The notes: generated by a model not told the origin, from the sequence alone. DNA of 64,000 nucleotides from Acidimicrobiia bacterium (GCA_022827265.1 JAJDTF010000131.1:1-64000), one strand, 5' to 3'. Shown: positions 54,810 to 64,000, counted from the first letter of the stretch. Numbers and translations are program-made.

Positions 54810-55169
54810 CTATTGATGCGGTGGAGCGAATGCAGCAAGAATGCGCTCGATCAGAGCATCCCACCCTTCTTCTTCCCGGCCTATACGCCTCAGGGCATGG
54901 GCACCGAGCGCGAGCGCTTGGCAGAGAAGCACGATCGAGTCCGTGGCGAGCGCCGAGTCGACCAGACCCCGTCTCTTGGCTTCGTCGATGATCGCGGCAG
55001 CAGCATCGGTATCGAAGACACCCAAGAGGGTGTCGTCGCCGTGAGCGCGTCCCGCCACGCAGTGCGACCCCCCGGTCAGGGTGGCGAGTTGTTGCATGAG
55101 GTCTTCGTGCCCGTCGAAGGCACCACTGAAATCGTCGGAAATTTGGGCAGGATCCGATGTCGAGGGCAT
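54810..55169 (-). CDS. TetR-like ligand domain without DNA-binding half (119 aa)
   Basis: 119 aa, all helical, resembling the C-terminal regulatory domain of TetR proteins (TDSIVLLCQALALGAHALRR, GWDALIERILAAFAPP). The same end pattern occurs in the full TetR next door (TEVMVLCYQALDIGVQLAL, HWDDLVKRVMASWAPL). No helix-turn-helix precedes it and the upstream 118 nt contain no matching fragment in any frame. ATG at 55169 follows a good promoter. Either a truncated paralogue or a small heterodimerising regulator. Confidence 0.6.
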   Translation of the reverse strand: MPSTSDPAQISDDFSGAFDGHEDLMQQLATLTGGSHCVAGRAHGDDTLLGVFDTDAAAAIIDEAKRRGLVDSALATDSIVLLCQALALGAHALRRIGREEEGWDALIERILAAFAPPHQ

Positions 55170-55287: not shown

Positions 55288-55935
55288 TCAGCCTTCGAGT
55301 CGAGGATCAGTCTCCAGTGGGGCCCAACTGGCCATGACACGCTTGACCAGATCATCCCAATGCGGGGCAATCTCGCTGATGGTGCGATCTCCTGACAACG
55401 TGAGGGCGAGTTGAACGCCGATGTCGAGAGCTTGGTAGCACAGCACCATGACTTCTGTGGGCAGGTCACCATCGAGGATGCCTGCTGCTTTGCATTCGGT
55501 CACGATCGCCGAAAGGCCCTCAGCCTCTGCATTGAGCGCTTGTGCTATGCAAGCCTTCAGTGCGCTGTCGCGCCTGGCGACGACGCATGCCTCCAAGAGC
55601 AGGCTCTTGGCCGCATTCTCGGCAGACTTCAGCAGATTGGTGCCGAACGAGGCCAAGGACATCTCTGAGGCACCCTCGCCAACTCTGACGTGGGCAGCGA
55701 GGTGCTTTGCCATAGCGTATTCAACGGCGGCAACGAAGAGTTCGCGCTTGTCACGCCAACGGGAATAGATGGCCCCGGTGGTCAGCTCGCTGCGCCGCGC
55801 GATGTCGGCAACTCTGGCAGCTTCAAAACCGCGCTCGCCGAACTCGACAACGGCCGCATCCAGCAGGCGCTGAGTCGTATCGGACGAATTGCGCTTGCCA
55901 GCGCCCGTATCGTCAGCAGCATTGGTCCAAGGCAT
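55288..55935 (-). CDS. TetR-family transcriptional regulator
   Basis: 215 aa. An N-terminal TetR DNA-binding domain (TTQRLLDAAVVEFGERGFEA, VADIARRSELTTGAIYSRW, DKRELFVAAV) and an all-helical ligand domain. ATG at 55935. It lies 77 nt downstream of the ABC operon on the same strand, so it may be read from the same transcript and may regulate that operon; this is inferred from position. Confidence 0.9.
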   Translation of the reverse strand: MPWTNAADDTGAGKRNSSDTTQRLLDAAVVEFGERGFEAARVADIARRSELTTGAIYSRWRDKRELFVAAVEYAMAKHLAAHVRVGEGASEMSLASFGTNLLKSAENAAKSLLLEACVVARRDSALKACIAQALNAEAEGLSAIVTECKAAGILDGDLPTEVMVLCYQALDIGVQLALTLSGDRTISEIAPHWDDLVKRVMASWAPLETDPRLEG

Positions 55936-56012: not shown

Positions 56013-56780
56013 TTAGTTCCGCTGATCTCCGAACCGAACTGCCGCTTCCATCGAGTCGAACCGGCGCAGCACCTCTGTCTCGACTGCATGCACGGCGGCG
56101 TCGTCGGGACGGCGAGGCCGGGGCAGGTTCACCGGGATGTCGTCGAACACCACGCCACCGGGGCGCAGCATCAGAATGCGGTCAGCGAGCTCCACTGCCT
56201 CGCCTACATCGTGGGTCACGAACAGCGCTGTCTTGCGTGTATGTGCCCAGATGCGCTGCAGGTAGTCGCGCAGCGATCGCCCGGTGAGTGCGTCCATGTG
56301 GCTGAACGGCTCGTCCATCAGCAGGACATCTGGGTTCACCAAGAATGCCCGTGCAATCCCCACGCGCTGCTGCATGCCGGCTGAGAGCTGCGCGGGATAC
56401 AGATGTGCTACATCGCTGAGGCCCACCATCGACAGGTAGAACTCGGCTTCGCGTTTGGACCGATCCGACTTGCGGTTCTGCACATACAGCATGTTGTCGA
56501 GCACGCTGCGCCACGGCAGCAGGCGCGGCTCTTGGAACACGTAGCCGACCTGAGCAGGCACGCCGTCTTGCACTACCCGCACAGCGCCGGCCGTCGGTTC
56601 CTCCACGCCCGCCACGATGTTGAGCAGCGTCGTCTTGCCGCTGCCGGAGGGACCGAGCACCGCTACGAACACGTTGCCGGTCACCGACATGGAGACCCCG
56701 CCCAGCGCTTGCACCTGCTGCGGGTACGTCGGCGTCGGCGGGTACACCTTGGTGAGATTCTCGATCAGGATGGTGGCCAT
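56013..56780 (-). CDS. ABC importer ATPase, nitrate/sulfonate/taurine type
   Basis: 255 aa: Walker A GPSGSGKT, Q-loop GYVFQEPRLLPWRSVLDN, signature LSAGMQQRVGIARAF, Walker B VLLMDEPFSHMD, H-loop VTHDVGEA. The PRLLPW segment is typical of the SsuB/TauB/NrtD group. Last gene of the six-gene operon; 49 nt after the upstream permease. Confidence 0.92.
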   Translation of the reverse strand: MATILIENLTKVYPPTPTYPQQVQALGGVSMSVTGNVFVAVLGPSGSGKTTLLNIVAGVEEPTAGAVRVVQDGVPAQVGYVFQEPRLLPWRSVLDNMLYVQNRKSDRSKREAEFYLSMVGLSDVAHLYPAQLSAGMQQRVGIARAFLVNPDVLLMDEPFSHMDALTGRSLRDYLQRIWAHTRKTALFVTHDVGEAVELADRILMLRPGGVVFDDIPVNLPRPRRPDDAAVHAVETEVLRRFDSMEAAVRFGDQRN

Positions 56781-56829
56781 TTCGTCCTTTCTCGGTCATG
56801 TGCATCAGCGAACGCGGAGACACGAGCCT

Positions 56830-57717
56830 TCATGCGATCTCGCCCTCTGCGAAGGTCAGAGTCGGCTGCTGCTGCCAGCGAGTCGATCGGTGCTCGAGAC
56901 GCCGCAGGACGAGCCAGTCCAGCAGGGTGATGAACACGACGAACAGCAGAATCCACGCGACGAATCCTTCAAAACGCTGGGCGTCGTACCAGTGCTTGGC
57001 GCGCCATCCCACACCCGAGGCGGTGCCGAACCACTCCACGATCAGGAGGCTGTTCCAGCTCGTCATGAATGCGAGGCGCACTCCGGTCACAGCGTTCGAC
57101 AGAGCGCCTCCTACCAGCAGATGCGTGGCGCGGCGCAGACGCGGCACACGGAACGCGTCGGACATCAGCGCTAGACCCGGGTCGAGCCCTCGGATTCCCG
57201 AGCTCAGGTTGACGGCCATGAACGGCACCGCTGTCAGAACCACGGCCACCACCGGAGCCGTCGAGCCGATGCCGAACCACAGCGATGCGGCGAACGCCCA
57301 CACCACCGACGGCAGCACCAGCAGTACCAGCACGGTGTCGTTCAGCACCGAACGGAACCTGCGGGAACCGCCGATCAGCAGGCCGAGCAGTCCGCCGACC
57401 GGGATGCCGATGGCCAAGCCGATGGCATAGCGCTGCAAGCTGATGCTCAACGGTCCCCAGAATTCGCCCCGACTGACGCCGCCGTGCGAACCGCCGCCCA
57501 GTTCCACACCGAGGAACGAGACCACCTCGTCGATGCTGGGCACTCGCCCGTTGACCGAGTGGAGGTACTGCCACACGACCAGCAGGATCGCGACGGCCAA
57601 GGCGTTGACGAACCATGGTTTGCGCGTCCAATGCACCGCTTCGGCAGGCGAACCCTGAGGTGTTCCGGGTACTTGGCCGAACTCGGATGTTGTCGGCAGG
57701 TCGGTTGCATAGCTCAT
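56830..57717 (-). CDS. ABC importer permease (second of two)
   Basis: 295 aa, about six membrane helices, with the SsuC/TauC-type EAA loop (LMSDAFRVPRLRRATHLLVG) and WNSLLIVEWFGTASGVGW near the end. ATG at 57717 overlaps the stop of the other permease (ATGA). It differs clearly from that partner, so the channel is probably a heterodimer rather than the usual homodimer of this group. Confidence 0.88.
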   Translation of the reverse strand: MSYATDLPTTSEFGQVPGTPQGSPAEAVHWTRKPWFVNALAVAILLVVWQYLHSVNGRVPSIDEVVSFLGVELGGGSHGGVSRGEFWGPLSISLQRYAIGLAIGIPVGGLLGLLIGGSRRFRSVLNDTVLVLLVLPSVVWAFAASLWFGIGSTAPVVAVVLTAVPFMAVNLSSGIRGLDPGLALMSDAFRVPRLRRATHLLVGGALSNAVTGVRLAFMTSWNSLLIVEWFGTASGVGWRAKHWYDAQRFEGFVAWILLFVVFITLLDWLVLRRLEHRSTRWQQQPTLTFAEGEIA

Positions 57718-58568
57718 CGCGTCGACTCCGCGGTTGCCAGCGAGACATGCGCGCCGCCGAACGCTCGACGCTCGAGCTGTCGGAACACAAAGTTCTCGAA
57801 GATGAACATCAATCCGATGAACAACGCCGTCCAGGCCAGCAGGCCGCGGACGTCGTAGCTCTCGAAGCTGCGTTTGATCTGGAATCCGACGCCGTCCGAT
57901 GATGCGAAGACCTCGGTAAGCAGGGTGATGCGCCACGCCAAGGCGAATGCTTGGCGCGCCCCGCCGATGACGGCGAGCACCGACGACGGCAGCAGCACCC
58001 CAGTGATGATCTGCGAGCGTGTGCGGCCGAACGACTCGCTCATGACAATGAGGCGCCGGTCTACTCTGGTGAGCCCTTGCGCGACGCTCGACATCACATA
58101 TGGCGTGGCCACCAGCGCTGCGGTGAGCATCGGACCGAGGCCCGACGCTCCGAACAGGATCAGCGCGAGGATCGCGAGGGCGACGGTGGGAATGCTCACG
58201 AAGAAGCGCGTCAGGATGCCCAGCAGGCCCCGCCACCAAGCGCTGTAGGCGATCACCATGCCCAGCACGATGCTGGCCGAGAGCGCCATGGTGCAGCCGA
58301 CGATGACTCGGAACAGGGACGCCCACAGCGTGGTGCCGAAACCGTCGCCGGTCACCACCTGCCACACCTCGGCGGCAACAGTGTGCGGCGGCGGCAGTTG
58401 CTGGGTGCCCAGCACGGCACCGGAGAACACGTACCACACGCCGATGAATGCCATCCAGCCGATAACCACGCCGGCGCGCAGGCCCCACCGGCCCATGACC
58501 GAGCGGCGTATCTCCCGAGCCGAGAGATCGGCGACAGCATCCGGGGTGACCGAGGTGTCGTAGGCCAC
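57714..58568 (-). CDS. ABC importer permease (first of two)
   Basis: 284 aa, about six helices (VVIGWMAFIGVWYVFSGAVL, SIPTVALAILALILFGASGL) and the loop IVMSESFGRTRSQIITGVLLP, then AWRITLLTEVFASSDGVGFQ, as in SsuC-type permeases. Begins 2 nt after the binding-protein stop. Confidence 0.88.
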   Translation of the reverse strand: MAYDTSVTPDAVADLSAREIRRSVMGRWGLRAGVVIGWMAFIGVWYVFSGAVLGTQQLPPPHTVAAEVWQVVTGDGFGTTLWASLFRVIVGCTMALSASIVLGMVIAYSAWWRGLLGILTRFFVSIPTVALAILALILFGASGLGPMLTAALVATPYVMSSVAQGLTRVDRRLIVMSESFGRTRSQIITGVLLPSSVLAVIGGARQAFALAWRITLLTEVFASSDGVGFQIKRSFESYDVRGLLAWTALFIGLMFIFENFVFRQLERRAFGGAHVSLATAESTR

Positions 58569-58570
58569 GG

Positions 58571-59665
58571 CTACTGACCTCCTGCCGGTGTAGGGCGGTT
58601 GGTGATGATCGACGGTGCCCGGGCGTCTGCCGGCAGATATCCGCCCGCCTTGAGCTGCGCAACGGCGTCTTGGTAGGTGTCAGCGTCGGCTTCGGTGAGA
58701 TACACGGTTGGGGCGATCCAGTTGTTGCGAGTCACGTAGTGCGTCAGCCAGTCGACGTGTTCCTGGGTCTGCAAGGACAAGAACTCGGGATAGGCGGCGA
58801 TGATTTCGGGATAGCTCGTATGCCAGTGCGCAAGGGCTGTCTCCCACAGGTCCAGGAAGGCGCTTGTCTCCTGCGGATGGGCGCGGTGCCACTCGCGTTC
58901 CACGAGGAACACCTTGCCGAGCAGAAGCTGGCTGGGCGTTCCCTGCATCTCGGCAAAGATCTGCGCCGCTGATCTGCCGTCGTACATCGGCCTCAGCATT
59001 CCCGCGCTCAACGCCGCTGCGCTGTCGTCAGGCTGGCAGATGCATGCGTCGGCGTCGCCGCTCTCGACGGTGTCGGCAACCACCGATGCGGCGATGATGT
59101 GCTCGAAGTCGCGGCTGCTGTCGCTGAGATCAAGCCCATGCGCCTGCTCCACGATGAGCGACCACAGCAAGGTCGACCCGAGCTGGTTCTCCATCGCGAT
59201 ACGGCCTTCCACCACCTCGGCCAAGTCCGTCGCCTGCGATGTCCGCTTCGTCGCCGCAATGGAGCCGTCGCTGGCGTACTTGCCGATGATGACCGGGGCG
59301 CTGTCGAGGCCTTGCGCGAATACCGGCACGTCGAGCGCGTCAATCAGGACGATGTCCGCGTGCCCGCTGACCAGTGCCGCGAACGGCTTAAAAGGCTGGC
59401 TGGCCTCTATGCGCAGACCGTGGGACGCCTCCCACTCGGCGAGTTCGCCGGAGTCGCCTAGCCATTGCCACAGCGGCTCGGAGGGGAGTGCAAAGCGAAT
59501 GACGTCGGCATCGGCATCTGGCGTCTCTGCGTTGGGCGCCGACGCTGCCGCGGATGGCTGATTGCTCGGATCGGCACCGCATGCGGCGCACACGACAGCC
59601 GATGCGGCGAGCATCGCCATCGCTGCGCGGCGGGCGATGCGCATTGACCTCGGCCTTTGCTTCAC
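58571..59665 (-). CDS. NMT1/SsuA-like substrate-binding lipoprotein
   Basis: 364 aa. Signal with lipobox VVCAAC (Cys near 29), then a type 2 binding fold: VIRFALPSEPLWQW, KPFAALVSGHADIVLIDALD, VEGRIAMENQLGSTLLWSLI and SGDADACICQPDDSAA. GTG at 59665 overlaps the upstream stop (GTGA); ATG at 59644 is an alternative. It matches the ATPase/permease type downstream. The substrate is unknown; this group includes riboflavin-, thiamine-precursor-, sulfonate- and nitrate-binding proteins. Confidence 0.87.
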   Translation of the reverse strand: MKQRPRSMRIARRAAMAMLAASAVVCAACGADPSNQPSAAASAPNAETPDADADVIRFALPSEPLWQWLGDSGELAEWEASHGLRIEASQPFKPFAALVSGHADIVLIDALDVPVFAQGLDSAPVIIGKYASDGSIAATKRTSQATDLAEVVEGRIAMENQLGSTLLWSLIVEQAHGLDLSDSSRDFEHIIAASVVADTVESGDADACICQPDDSAAALSAGMLRPMYDGRSAAQIFAEMQGTPSQLLLGKVFLVEREWHRAHPQETSAFLDLWETALAHWHTSYPEIIAAYPEFLSLQTQEHVDWLTHYVTRNNWIAPTVYLTEADADTYQDAVAQLKAGGYLPADARAPSIITNRPTPAGGQ

Positions 59666-61269
59666 TGGTCCTCCCGTGGTGCCTGGGCGGAAGGCGCCAG
59701 CCAGCCGGTGACGGCTCGCATGCATCCCCACTCGTCGAGAACACAGTCGGGATCGGCCTGCAGAACACGGAACCGGTCGGCTCCTGAGAAGTCGTCGGGT
59801 CCGAATTCCAGCCGCCCTCCATAGCCGGTCTCATATTGCGTGGCAGCGAGCTGCTCGACGAGCGCCTCCGCGGAGAACGGCCCGGAGATGCGCGACAGCG
59901 CGCTCACCACCACATCGAGCGCGTCGCAAGTCGCCACGAGCACACCCCATGCATCAGAGTGATGCCGGTGCCCGAACGGGTCTGCGTTCAGTGCCGAGTT
60001 GCGCAGGCTGACGCACCCGCGATCCATCTCAGCCTGTGCATCGCCCGCAGCGCGACGCGCGCTCGTGAGGAAGAAGTTGTCGGCCTGCGCCGCAGGGGCG
60101 CCCGTCAAGGTCAGCGTCGCCCCTTGAATATCGCTCGCGACCCAGCGGGGGTGCCAGTCGACGCGCTCTGCCGCGCGCATCATCCGCCGCAGTTCGAACC
60201 ATGGCGCCGTGGAGAAAACGGCAACCACGCCACGGTCGCGGTGCTTGGCGGCTTCGTTCAGATAGAACTGCTCTATCTCGCCCAGAGTCAGCCGCTCCGA
60301 GTCGGGCAGAGCGTCTAGTTCGACAGCCGCATCGGCCTGTTCGCTCGTTGTCAGGTCGCCCTCGAGGAGGCGGACACTGCTCTCGGCACTCAGCAGCTCC
60401 AGCAGTCCGAACTTCCCGGGCACGTCGGTGATGACGCCCGGGATGAAGCTCTGGCTGCCGGTGACAGCTTCGATCTCGGCGATGTCGGAACTGATGCTGA
60501 ATCGCAGACCGGAGGACGCGGCCCCTGCGGGTGGCCCGTACAGCAGCCCCACTTGGTCGCCGTCGGTGACAATCTCCGATCGCCGTGCTACTTCGATGCT
60601 GTTGGCCAGCAGGTAGCCCGCCGTGCCGTCGTCGAGGAACAGATGGCCCCTGCTGAGTACCTGTACGGTCGCCGGGACCGATGCAGAAATGCCGAGCATC
60701 GGTACATGGGCGTCAATGGCGAGACACTTCGCGCTCCGTACGTCTCCGAAAAGGCTGAGGACGATGATCGGCTGTGCTGCGAGAACGTCTGCGCACACTT
60801 TGCCGAACGACGGTCCCGGATCGGTCCAGCTCCATCGGTGAATGCTGGCCTGCACGCATCTGCCGTGGATGCCGCCGTTCGCGTTCACTTCGGTGAGATA
60901 TGCCTCGATCCCTTTCGACGGATCCTCAATGACCAGCGAGCCGAGGCCGACATCGTCGAATTCGGTCAGGTCCGGTCCTACGTAAGCGAGGCGCAGCGGC
61001 CGGTCGAGGCTGCACTGGTCGGGGCCGAACGCTGCGAGGTTGCCCCCGGCGGCGGCAGCACCCGCTCCGGTTCGTGTCGCCAAGACGTCCTGCGGGGCCT
61101 CGTCTGCACCAGCGTCGAGATTGCCAGGCTCGGCCACAGGCTGGCTGGTGCTGCCTCCGCACGCTGCGCCGATGAGCGTCAGCGCTGCTGCGGCGATGAG
61201 CAGTCGCCGCGCAGGCTCGCGGCGTGTGCCGCTGCGGCCAGGACTGCGGCGCAGCAGGGGGAGGCTCAT
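59662..61269 (-). CDS. Receptor-type (Peripla_BP/Leu-Ile-Val family) binding lipoprotein
   Basis: 535 aa. Basic N-terminus, membrane/lipobox segment LTLIGAACGG (Cys at 37), an Ala/Gly linker, then the two-lobed type 1 binding fold (LRLAYVGPDLTEFDD, GGIHGRCVQASIHRWSW, VCADVLAAQPIIVLSLFGD, GVVAVFSTAPWFELRRMM, HHSDAWGVLVATCDALDVVV). The ending carries paired Cys (DPDCVLDEWGC). Larger than usual (~400 aa). No liv-type permeases are nearby; it is coupled to both neighbours (ATGA and GTGA), so it may act as a sensor rather than a transport protein. Confidence 0.85.
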   Translation of the reverse strand: MSLPLLRRSPGRSGTRREPARRLLIAAAALTLIGAACGGSTSQPVAEPGNLDAGADEAPQDVLATRTGAGAAAAGGNLAAFGPDQCSLDRPLRLAYVGPDLTEFDDVGLGSLVIEDPSKGIEAYLTEVNANGGIHGRCVQASIHRWSWTDPGPSFGKVCADVLAAQPIIVLSLFGDVRSAKCLAIDAHVPMLGISASVPATVQVLSRGHLFLDDGTAGYLLANSIEVARRSEIVTDGDQVGLLYGPPAGAASSGLRFSISSDIAEIEAVTGSQSFIPGVITDVPGKFGLLELLSAESSVRLLEGDLTTSEQADAAVELDALPDSERLTLGEIEQFYLNEAAKHRDRGVVAVFSTAPWFELRRMMRAAERVDWHPRWVASDIQGATLTLTGAPAAQADNFFLTSARRAAGDAQAEMDRGCVSLRNSALNADPFGHRHHSDAWGVLVATCDALDVVVSALSRISGPFSAEALVEQLAATQYETGYGGRLEFGPDDFSGADRFRVLQADPDCVLDEWGCMRAVTGWLAPSAQAPREDQ

Positions 61270-63992
61270 TGGAGCCCAGCGGGGCCGACGCCGCCCGTCG
61301 TCGGCCCCCCGAACGGGGCAGGCGCCTCGAGCGTCACAGCCCGGGCAGCGGTCATGGTGATCGAGATGGGGTGAACTACGGCAGTTCCGGTGTCGTCGAC
61401 GTGGATGCGCCAAGGCCAGCGTGCGCTCACCACGGAGGTGGCGCCCACGAGCGAGAGCCGAGATTCGGGTGCGGCGGAAACCTGCCCGGCACGCTGAATC
61501 AGCAGATCGTTGCCGGGACCGATGACCAGCAGCTCGATCATGCCGTCGCCGGCCCCGTAGGCGTTCGCGAGCAGGGATTCGAGCTCGGGGGAGTCGTAGC
61601 TTGTGAAGGCGACTCCTTCCCAGCCGATCATGCCGGCCTCGCTCTCGAACCCCACAGCGGTGATGCGCAGATGCCCTGCCATGGGAGACGAGCCGAGAGT
61701 GCTGACGATCGCGCTGAGCAGGCCGGCCGCTGCAGTCCTGGGCCCCGACACGGCGAGGCACCCCACCTGCTCGAGGTTGAGCAGCAGCGGGCCTTCGAAG
61801 GTGTTGCCCACAGGCACCAGAGCGGGGCACAGCGACGGTCCTTGACCGACCGCGCTCAGGTCTCGTGCGGTGACTCCTTGCGGCAGCTCGAGGACGTACC
61901 CGCCCGAGGCCGACCTCCAGCCCGGTGGCGTGGGAACTGGGCGGTGAAGCAGCACTTCGAAGCCGTAGGTGCCCGACCGCACAGCCAGCACGTCGGGCTT
62001 GGGGCGCTGCTGACCGACGGTGACTGCCCGCAGGTGCCGCATCGCAGCTTCGATCAGTTCGAGCGACTCGCTGCCAGCCGACTGCAGCAAAGACTGCTCG
62101 AAGGCATCGGGCATTCCTGCTGCGCGCTGGCTCTGCCGCCGCCGACGAGCGAGCTGCCACAGCAGCATCGCGTCGCCGACTGCTGTTCCGGCCAGGCTGC
62201 GGCCGACCGGAGAACTCTGGACCGGCGTGGTCAGCCCGCTGGGGGTGGTTCCTGTTACCGATGGCAGGAAGTGCGGCACCCGTGGGGCCTCGGCCTCAGG
62301 CGGCCGAGGGGCTTCCGCTGTGCCCATGCCCGGCATTCCTGCGTAGGGCGCCAAGGGATCGGCGGGCGGCATCGTCGGCTCGTCGGGCCATTCGTCGAAT
62401 GTGGGCGGCGGCTCGAGGGCGGGTGGAGGCTCCGGGGCGACGTAGGCCGTCGGCGCTTCCGGCGCGGGCGACGGCGCAGCGCCGACGTATGCGGACGGCG
62501 GCTGCGGGGTCTCCGCCGCAGGATCGGCGTATACGGGAGGCGGGGTCTCCGCCGGAGGGACCTGGGCCGCGACTGGTTCGGCATCTGGAGGGTCGGCGGG
62601 CTGTGGCTCGCGGTGCGGCGGTTCGGCGATCTGCGGCTCGGCATGCGCCGATTCTTCGATGCCGTGCTCCGCTTCGAGCGGTTCGTCCGGCGCCGGCTCG
62701 GCCTCCGGCTCGACCGCTGTGTCTTCGACTGTCTCCGGGGCTGTGTCTTCGACGATTCTTGCCTCGGCGATGGAGGCCTCTTCGACGGCGTCGTCCGAAT
62801 CAGCCGGTTCGATGGTGCCGATGTCTGCCGGTGGCGCCTCGACGGCTCCGGCAGGTATGTCGGCCGCTGCCTCCGAATCGAGGGTCTCGGGCTGCGCGTC
62901 GTCACGCGGCGGCGCATCCAACGACTCGACCTCGAACGCGGCCGCCTCAGCAGGCTGCGGCTGCTCCGTCTGCATCGCCGCAGCGGCCTGGCCCGGCGCG
63001 GGTTCGGTGTGGTCGGGTGTGCTCCAAGTCGCCTCGTCGGGCTCAGACGCGGCTGGCGTCGCTTGCTCGTCTTCATCGTCGCCCGGCAGCGTCGGCGTCG
63101 GCATGGCGTCATCGGGCAGGGCTGCGACGCCCGCGGCAGGCATCGCGTCTTCTGCGGCTTCGGCCGATGCTGCTTCTCCGGCGCCCTCGTCGCCGGCGAT
63201 GTCATCGGGCTCTGAGTCGTCGCCGGCGTCGAGATCGGTGGTCTCGCCTTGTTCCTCGTCATGAGGCGCCTCGCCGTCGGGTGCCTCTGCTGGGGTCGCC
63301 GCGACCGCCGGCATCTCGAAAGCCGACGGGGGCGACAGCGGCGCAGCATCTTGGGATGGCTTCTCGGCGCTGTCGCCGCCGCGGGCAGCGATCTCGGCGA
63401 TGCCGGGCAATTCGTTGCCGAGCGGAGGCTGCGCGGCTTCGGGCAGCGCTCCTTGGGTCAGGCCGCGCCAGAACGGCACCACCTCTTCGGGTGTCGGCTC
63501 GCGGCCCCAAGCCGTGAACAGGAACGTCTCGGCGAGCGTCCAGAGGTACACAGGATCGGGGCGCCCCCACGGCAGCGGATCGCCGGGCAGGGCGAGCGCA
63601 GCACCCTCGGGCAGCAGTTCGTCCGGATCCAGGCCGGTGATGCCGGGATAGGCAGCATTCAGCGTGCGGAGCTCTGACCAGCGCTCAGGTGCATTGAGGA
63701 ACTGCGCTGCGACGCTGCGCAGCGTGTCCTCGGTGCGGGCGATGTAGTACCCCCGCACCGGCACCACCATGGGCGGCTCGTGCTGAGCGATCTCGCTCGG
63801 CGGCACGCTTGCCGGCAGTACGCCTTCGCTGTCGGTGAGGTCTTCCGGCGTCGCTGTCGAGCCGGATTCTTCTGGGTTTGGTGCACCCGTTGCATCTTCT
63901 GTGCCCAGGCGCTCGGGTTCCGGCATCGCATCGTCGTCAGTGGCGGGGATGTCCTCTCCCGTGGCGTCGTCGGATGTCTCGTCGGCGGACAT
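61266..63992 (-). CDS. LysM-domain protein with long acidic linker (possibly incomplete at 5' end)
   Basis: 908 aa from the ATG at 63992, which has GAGG 4 nt upstream, but an earlier start beyond the window is possible. Residues ~1-75 are acidic; ~76-135 look like a LysM domain (VRGYYIARTEDTLRSVAAQF, DELLPEGAALALPG); about 145-600 are Pro/Ala/Asp/Glu-rich and disordered, with YVG/YVAPEPPP-type repeats; the C-terminal ~300 residues form a domain with QLARRRRQSQR, KPDVLAVRSGTYGFEVLLH, GPLLLNLEQVGCLAVSG and MAGHLRITAVGFESEAG. This C-terminal type is seen in large actinobacterial LysM/SARP-type proteins, but the BTAD domain is not seen. First visible gene of the operon, coupled by ATGA to the receptor gene. 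Confidence 0.75.
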   Translation of the reverse strand: MSADETSDDATGEDIPATDDDAMPEPERLGTEDATGAPNPEESGSTATPEDLTDSEGVLPASVPPSEIAQHEPPMVVPVRGYYIARTEDTLRSVAAQFLNAPERWSELRTLNAAYPGITGLDPDELLPEGAALALPGDPLPWGRPDPVYLWTLAETFLFTAWGREPTPEEVVPFWRGLTQGALPEAAQPPLGNELPGIAEIAARGGDSAEKPSQDAAPLSPPSAFEMPAVAATPAEAPDGEAPHDEEQGETTDLDAGDDSEPDDIAGDEGAGEAASAEAAEDAMPAAGVAALPDDAMPTPTLPGDDEDEQATPAASEPDEATWSTPDHTEPAPGQAAAAMQTEQPQPAEAAAFEVESLDAPPRDDAQPETLDSEAAADIPAGAVEAPPADIGTIEPADSDDAVEEASIAEARIVEDTAPETVEDTAVEPEAEPAPDEPLEAEHGIEESAHAEPQIAEPPHREPQPADPPDAEPVAAQVPPAETPPPVYADPAAETPQPPSAYVGAAPSPAPEAPTAYVAPEPPPALEPPPTFDEWPDEPTMPPADPLAPYAGMPGMGTAEAPRPPEAEAPRVPHFLPSVTGTTPSGLTTPVQSSPVGRSLAGTAVGDAMLLWQLARRRRQSQRAAGMPDAFEQSLLQSAGSESLELIEAAMRHLRAVTVGQQRPKPDVLAVRSGTYGFEVLLHRPVPTPPGWRSASGGYVLELPQGVTARDLSAVGQGPSLCPALVPVGNTFEGPLLLNLEQVGCLAVSGPRTAAAGLLSAIVSTLGSSPMAGHLRITAVGFESEAGMIGWEGVAFTSYDSPELESLLANAYGAGDGMIELLVIGPGNDLLIQRAGQVSAAPESRLSLVGATSVVSARWPWRIHVDDTGTAVVHPISITMTAARAVTLEAPAPFGGPTTGGVGPAGLQ

Positions 63993-64000
63993 GTCCTCGG

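Follow-up and report, generated by a model that had tools for sequence, protein, structure and literature searches.

A possible Tad pilus-linked ABC importer behind a LysM/FtsK-like protein gene in an Acidimicrobiia bacterium

Background

What kind of system joins, in a single minus-strand gene unit, a LysM protein, two binding lipoproteins and the permeases and ATPase of an ATP-binding cassette (ABC) importer? The question is raised by a stretch of 64,000 nucleotides from an Acidimicrobiia bacterium (GCA_022827265.1, JAJDTF010000131.1:1-64000), here called the window, which makes up the first 64,000 bases of a contig 176,629 bases long in a 3.8-Mb genome. The original prediction, made from the window alone, was of a wall-type scaffold associated with two receptors and a transporter. 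We compared the locus with its relatives in other genomes, which are metagenome assemblies with several contigs that break within the LysM gene. We give about an even chance to the reading that an extended gene cluster for Tad (tight-adherence, Flp) pili has this locus as its downstream end, with the importer coupled to the Tad machine via a cytosolic LysM/FtsK-like adaptor.

Results

Six consecutive open reading frames (ORFs) were found on the minus strand at 56013-64000: LysM, the first gene of the unit, whose 3' part (61266..64000) lies inside the window; a receptor lipoprotein (59662..61269); the substrate-binding lipoprotein SBP2 (58571..59665); the permeases PermA (57714..58568) and PermB (56830..57717); and an ABC ATPase (56013..56780). 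The junctions, recomputed from the sequence, were 4-nt overlaps at LysM/receptor (ATGA), receptor/SBP2 (GTGA) and PermA/PermB (ATGA), and gaps of 2 nt at SBP2/PermA and 49 nt at PermB/ATPase. The six ORFs, three overlaps and two gaps originally described were all recovered exactly, except that position 63992, the upper limit of the range originally given, is not where LysM begins but an internal Met; the reading frame runs open beyond the window end to 65024 on the contig. The gene likely starts at 64742 (MARQGFFSRLFRRRPK), giving a predicted protein of 1158 aa; this start is kept in two sister species. A perfect palindrome upstream of it (ATAGTCGCGACTAT) was considered as an operator and rejected, as it was not conserved in the sister species. 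A sigma-70 promoter scan found none, and the minus-strand terminator-like matches lay inside genes.

The original prediction looked to other genomes for the same six-gene order, and nine loci carried it in full: those of the window genome, two sisters (G001 and G002), G454, G456, G457, G459, G460 and G461. G454, G456, G457 and G459 were counted as full though the 5' side of LysM was cut by a contig end, and three more loci (G453, G458 and a second G461 copy) were cut further; such recurrence goes beyond chance or a peculiarity of this one locus. The order was shared by IRC4_bin_37 and SB0668_bin_6 even though SBP2 was only 41-44% identical; the PermA/PermB overlap was 4 nt in all nine loci with a placeable start, and that of LysM/receptor was 4 or 1 nt in eight. 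Every close LysM or receptor orthologue found with enough sequence adjoins the ABC genes, bar stray paralogues in G460; the general separation of these genes that the original prediction named as its refutation was not seen, and the coupled unit stands to that extent. These G460 paralogues are a lone receptor-like and a lone SBP2-like gene away from the LysM and permease genes (L251:10935-12833, L259:9769-11376); one guess is that they are spare receptors for the same importer.

Upstream of LysM, outside the window on the same contig, there are tad genes of which the original prediction made no mention. On the same strand as the unit are two TadE-like genes (contig 70626-71426 and 72259-72960), a Flp-like pilin recognised by similarity only (76771-77331), two TadB/C (T2SSF) proteins (78158-79120 and 79009-79923; PF00482 above cut-off), a TadA ATPase (T2SSE; 79927-81456; PF00437, E = 3.7e-31), a TadZ-like ATPase (81510-83189) and a SAF/RcpC protein (83212-84129), and on the opposite strand a prepilin peptidase (84072-84590; PF01478 above cut-off). 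PF13400 (Tad) matched orthologues weakly, below cut-off. A 2.55-Mb contig of G461 presented on one strand the series RcpC-TadZ-TadA-TadB-TadC-Flp-TadE-LysM-receptor-SBP2-PermA-PermB-ATPase; G453 had the same Tad-to-importer series until the contig end, and in G460 the TadE genes lay immediately upstream of the unit. Wherever sufficient upstream sequence was available, the unit usually came after a Tad/Flp cluster. Among the Tad/Flp (type IVc) pilus loci of Actinobacteria, the tad-1 and tad-2 clusters of Micrococcus luteus (PMC4322843) share TadA, TadB/TadC, a Flp-like pilin, TadE-like minor pilins and an A24 prepilin peptidase; the present cluster differs in containing an importer and its two binding proteins. 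The Micrococcus luteus paper names neither LysM nor an ABC transporter (PMC4322843), and no description of a tad-LysM-ABC unit turned up in our literature searches.

The LysM protein starts with a basic N-terminus. This is followed by a LysM-like domain and a conserved YLWTLAE..WGREPSPEEVVPFWRGL segment (63453..63767, minus strand, as for the following parts), an acidic, proline-rich linker of about 400 aa (62205..63452) and a C-terminal domain (C-domain) that resembles a degenerate FtsK/SpoIIIE (EccC) domain (61269..62204). Identity to distant orthologues was 74-79% in the LysM-like domain and segment and about 60-62% in the C-domain, and fell to 31-35% in the poorly conserved linker, whose composition (97 D/E vs 9 K/R in 450 residues) agreed with the acidic linker of ~450 residues first described. 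Pfam LysM (PF01476) did not match the window protein and scored 15.1-18.4 bits in the orthologues against a cut-off of 20.9 (the best, at 18.4 bits, had E = 0.0022); the motif spacing fits LysM, and one homologue sharing the C-domain presented a genuine LysM Pfam score.

The N-terminus of LysM was complete in six genomes. In five of them, G000, G001, G002, G453 and G460, the protein had no signal peptide, and a plain hydropathy scan, the only means by which membrane helices were assessed, showed no transmembrane helix; the protein seems to stay inside the cell. The sixth genome, G461, has two LysM proteins (L255:14327-17719, L257:3859-7236) that retain two N-terminal membrane helices; these would leave LysM inside if the N-terminus is inside. 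When a C-domain profile of 14 sequences was compared with solved structures, it matched FtsK/SpoIIIE domains of EccC (4nh0, E = 5e-4; 8rin, E = 0.09). The likeness to the FtsK/SpoIIIE domains of EccC, of type VII secretion, is that of this profile match; the C-domain differs in being one degenerate domain without Walker A (GPLLLNLEQVGCLAVSGPRTAAAGLL, with no GK[ST]).

More distant homologues of the C-domain, from the same order of bacteria, were 26-34% identical over the matched parts in ten loci examined, most of which adjoin tad genes and none of which adjoins this importer. About 990-1190 residues long, they have membrane helices at the N-terminus and the same middle domain (20-26% identity in a 14-row alignment; search matches with E from 1.8e-14 to 2.3e-4); LysM was recognisable in part of them, and a C-terminal BTAD domain in part. 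These LysM-BTAD proteins share with the window protein a LysM-like region, the linker, the degenerate FtsK-like domain and the place after TadE. They differ in that the BTAD domain present in the tad-linked homologues was found neither in the window protein nor in its close orthologues, which end after the FtsK-like domain and mostly are without N-terminal membrane helices. With these orthologues, the window protein is a remodelled form derived from membrane LysM-BTAD regulators beside tad genes, BTAD being lost in all close orthologues and the helices in all lineages but G461, whose proteins are apparent intermediates between the membrane regulators and the soluble form. Three genomes with the remodelled LysM also hold a more distant member of the family, which in two of the three shares a contig with another TadA.

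SBP2 of the window had no Pfam match of its own, but its family matched NMT1 and Phosphonate-bd. Its structure model (pLDDT 88.7) aligned with SsuA (Z 25.6, root-mean-square deviation 3.1, 282 aligned) and also with PqqT (Z about 25), CmpA/NrtA (Z 22), TauA and Thi5 structures, which bears out the NMT1/SsuA-like binding lipoprotein (NMT1/SsuA/TauA fold, Cys29) of the original prediction. Taurine may be its ligand, being compatible with the fold and the supposed habitat (see below). PermA is a SsuC/TauC-like BPD_transp_1 permease and PermB a second one of this family; the SsuB/NrtD/CmpD-like ATPase presented intact motifs (Walker A GPSGSGKT, signature LSAGMQQR, Walker B LLMDEP). Compared with the SsuABC, TauABC and NrtABCD-CmpABCD systems, the unit shares the fold of the binding protein, the BPD_transp_1 permeases and the SsuB/CmpD-like ATPase, but has two distinct permease genes, the Tad link and a second binding lipoprotein; the NCBIfam equivalogs SsuB/C, TauB/C and NtrB/CD all scored far below their curated cut-offs (e.g., SsuB 177.8 vs 395 bits, SsuC 72 vs 347 bits). 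A scan with the SBP2 alignment, taking one genome per species, gave 79 loci, mostly in Actinomycetota. Permease and ATPase genes adjoined SBP2 in 72 of the 79, with tad genes in only one of these, and LysM or the receptor was present in only four, IRC4_bin_37 and SB0668_bin_6 among them. The four ABC genes are thus a common free-standing actinobacterial importer of the SsuA/TauA type, as a rule with two permeases, and the permease pair is no oddity of the locus.

The receptor (lipobox Cys37) had been called Leu-type. In the window protein Peripla_BP_6 remained sub-threshold (26.9 bits vs a cut-off of 31.7), while all five of five orthologues matched it at E <= 0.01, and a type I fold is predicted; the receptor profile gave no match at 0.01 among solved structures. 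A receptor search across the class, centred on the window genome, returned only the query gene itself, and a profile search of the relatives of IRC4_bin_37 gave orthologues in eight genomes. The second copy of the unit in G453 reads LysM-SBP2-PermA-PermB-ATPase, without a receptor, which indicates that the receptor is a dispensable accessory and the LysM-importer link the core.

In trees, the Tad-linked SBP2 proteins formed one clade with 100/100 support, with one stray row inside, and the Tad-linked ATPases also formed one clade, so that one recruitment of the importer is the simplest reading. Identities between the window and G453/G454 were 83% for the ATPase, 79% for the LysM domain, 62% for the C-domain, 58-65% for the permeases, 42-43% for SBP2 and 37% for the receptor; baseline values against the distant lineage were 71% for TadA and 83% for PdxS. 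The ATPase was 78-84% identical across distant orthologues. At SBP2 identities of 40-45%, the Tad-linked ATPases were 82.5% identical (81-84%, minimum 81.3, in 16 pairs, few and of shared ancestry) and the stand-alone ATPases 56.7% (maximum 69.5, 601 pairs). The parts predicted to be intracellular thus hardly change, in contrast to the divergent receptors outside, a pattern that a conserved intracellular partner would give.

Several further genes accompany the unit. Two of them encode a large secreted-type protein rich in Cys (726-1143 aa) and a lipoprotein, neither of which has a Pfam match. They lie before LysM in the window genome (contig 65837-69268 and 69356-70591) and after the ATPase gene in several others (L140:6653-9735), and their products are possible pilus-tip or surface proteins. 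The cluster of SB0668_bin_6 ends with an opposite-strand binding protein of glycine-betaine type (L140:9826-11262; ProX/OpuAC-like by eye), followed by a histidine kinase. In G002, where tad genes and unit occupy separate contigs (C72 versus C54; L127/L128 and L126), either a rearrangement that broke the region between lipoprotein and large protein or an assembly difference would account for the split. Related coiled-coil membrane ORFs (MATIAPVTDSAGAELPDS..., with ARMDERF-like repeats) are dispersed in the tad region on both strands (L002:9031-9666 and L002:17983-18651, contig about 65030-74650; contig 73282-73758). A TetR-family regulator (55288-55935) and a short ORF (54810-55169) between the ATPase gene and pdxT were seen in this genome only; the ATPase-pdxT spacing is only about 40-200 bp in the sisters G001 and G002.

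Discussion

We read the locus as an extended Tad pilus locus with an importer built into its end, and the mechanism we favour would work as follows. An SsuABC/TauABC-type importer would have been recruited once into the cluster and put under translational coupling behind the remodelled LysM protein. SBP2, usually with a second Peripla_BP_6-like lipoprotein, would be displayed outside, and PermA/PermB with two copies of the ATPase would form the energised importer. The LysM protein, which carries a dead FtsK/EccC-like domain and is cytosolic by sequence, or in one lineage a membrane protein with LysM inside, would most likely serve within the cell as an adaptor between the ATPase/permease side of the importer and the Tad assembly machine, and ligand capture and pilus activity would be coordinated. 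The sequences themselves show the gene unit with its conservation and overlapping frames, the fold of SBP2, the intact ATPase motifs, the lost DNA-binding end and the unusually high conservation of the intracellular parts, with a single origin as the simplest account of the trees. Conserved gene order suggests that attachment and uptake or sensing run as one system; the protein-protein coupling, the direction of control and the ligand are what we infer. A more specific version we consider doubtful: Tad machine, cytosolic LysM/FtsK-like adaptor and importer would be physically coupled, the pilus being gated by the capture of small molecules, or uptake being driven by contact through the pilus, and receptors that diverge fast outside would serve an almost invariant engine inside. 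A role in competence and DNA uptake, as for the Tad pili of Micrococcus luteus, may also be considered.

Several observations weigh against an importer physically tied to the pilus. The large secreted-type protein and the lipoprotein sit between TadE and LysM, and the stretch from the large protein to LysM, about 1.1 kb, contains an opposite-strand ORF, so that LysM may start its own transcript. Adjacency is not strictly kept, for the sister G002 has its tad genes on one contig and the LysM-importer unit on another, where the neighbouring genes differ. The AlphaFold model of the C-domain, from five sequences, was poor (pLDDT 46) and was discarded for fold search. The high ratio of ATPase to SBP2 identity, drawn from those few related pairs, may equally mean fast evolution of the binding proteins. 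Gene order and conservation bear on contact only indirectly and could reflect co-expression only.

Co-expression is the main rival: a normal sulfonate/taurine-class nutrient importer would be switched on with Tad pili, both being useful to a cell attached to a host or surface, with no physical link and with LysM serving the pilus alone. This is quite possible, if short of an even chance. The four-gene importer is self-sufficient elsewhere, as the 72 of 79 loci indicate, and taurine transport genes, which may or may not correspond to this importer, are reported to be enriched in sponge members of the UBA5794 actinobacteria (PMC12008989); several relatives of the window genome are probably sponge-associated, to go by such isolate names as IRC4_bin and SB0668_bin. 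However, the adjacency of LysM and importer is kept even without the receptor and across deep divergence, and the intracellular parts are unusually conserved. That the genes simply travel as an island without functional connection would explain why, of the 11 genomes in the genus, just 3 have the block, why it is absent beside pdxT in the five sister species examined, and why the orthologous tad cluster is confined to the same three genomes; but order and start/stop overlaps persist at ~40% receptor identity, the proteins form one clade, and a duplicated copy retains the LysM-importer order, which makes such hitch-hiking improbable.

We regard as least probable of all, and very unlikely, the model of the original prediction, in which a cell-wall-anchored LysM protein holds the importer and both receptors together on the outer side of the membrane. 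The LysM-like domain and the long acidic linker do exist, and in related LysM-BTAD proteins LysM is flanked by membrane helices. Yet the absence of signal peptide and membrane helix from five of the six genomes leaves no visible export route for the LysM protein, for which reason we disfavour the scaffold, and the basic N-terminus and a conserved C-domain resembling cytoplasmic FtsK/EccC domains point the same way.

Conclusions

Tad pili have known roles in adhesion, competence and predation. If the Tad-linked reading is true, a conserved tad cluster equipped with an importer and a pair of receptors would connect attachment with feeding or chemical sensing in apparently sponge-living bacteria. 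The proposed assembly of LysM protein, ABC ATPase and Tad base is offered as a candidate complex that can be tested, and the locus would show what a tad-linked LysM-BTAD regulator can become after losing its DNA-binding end.

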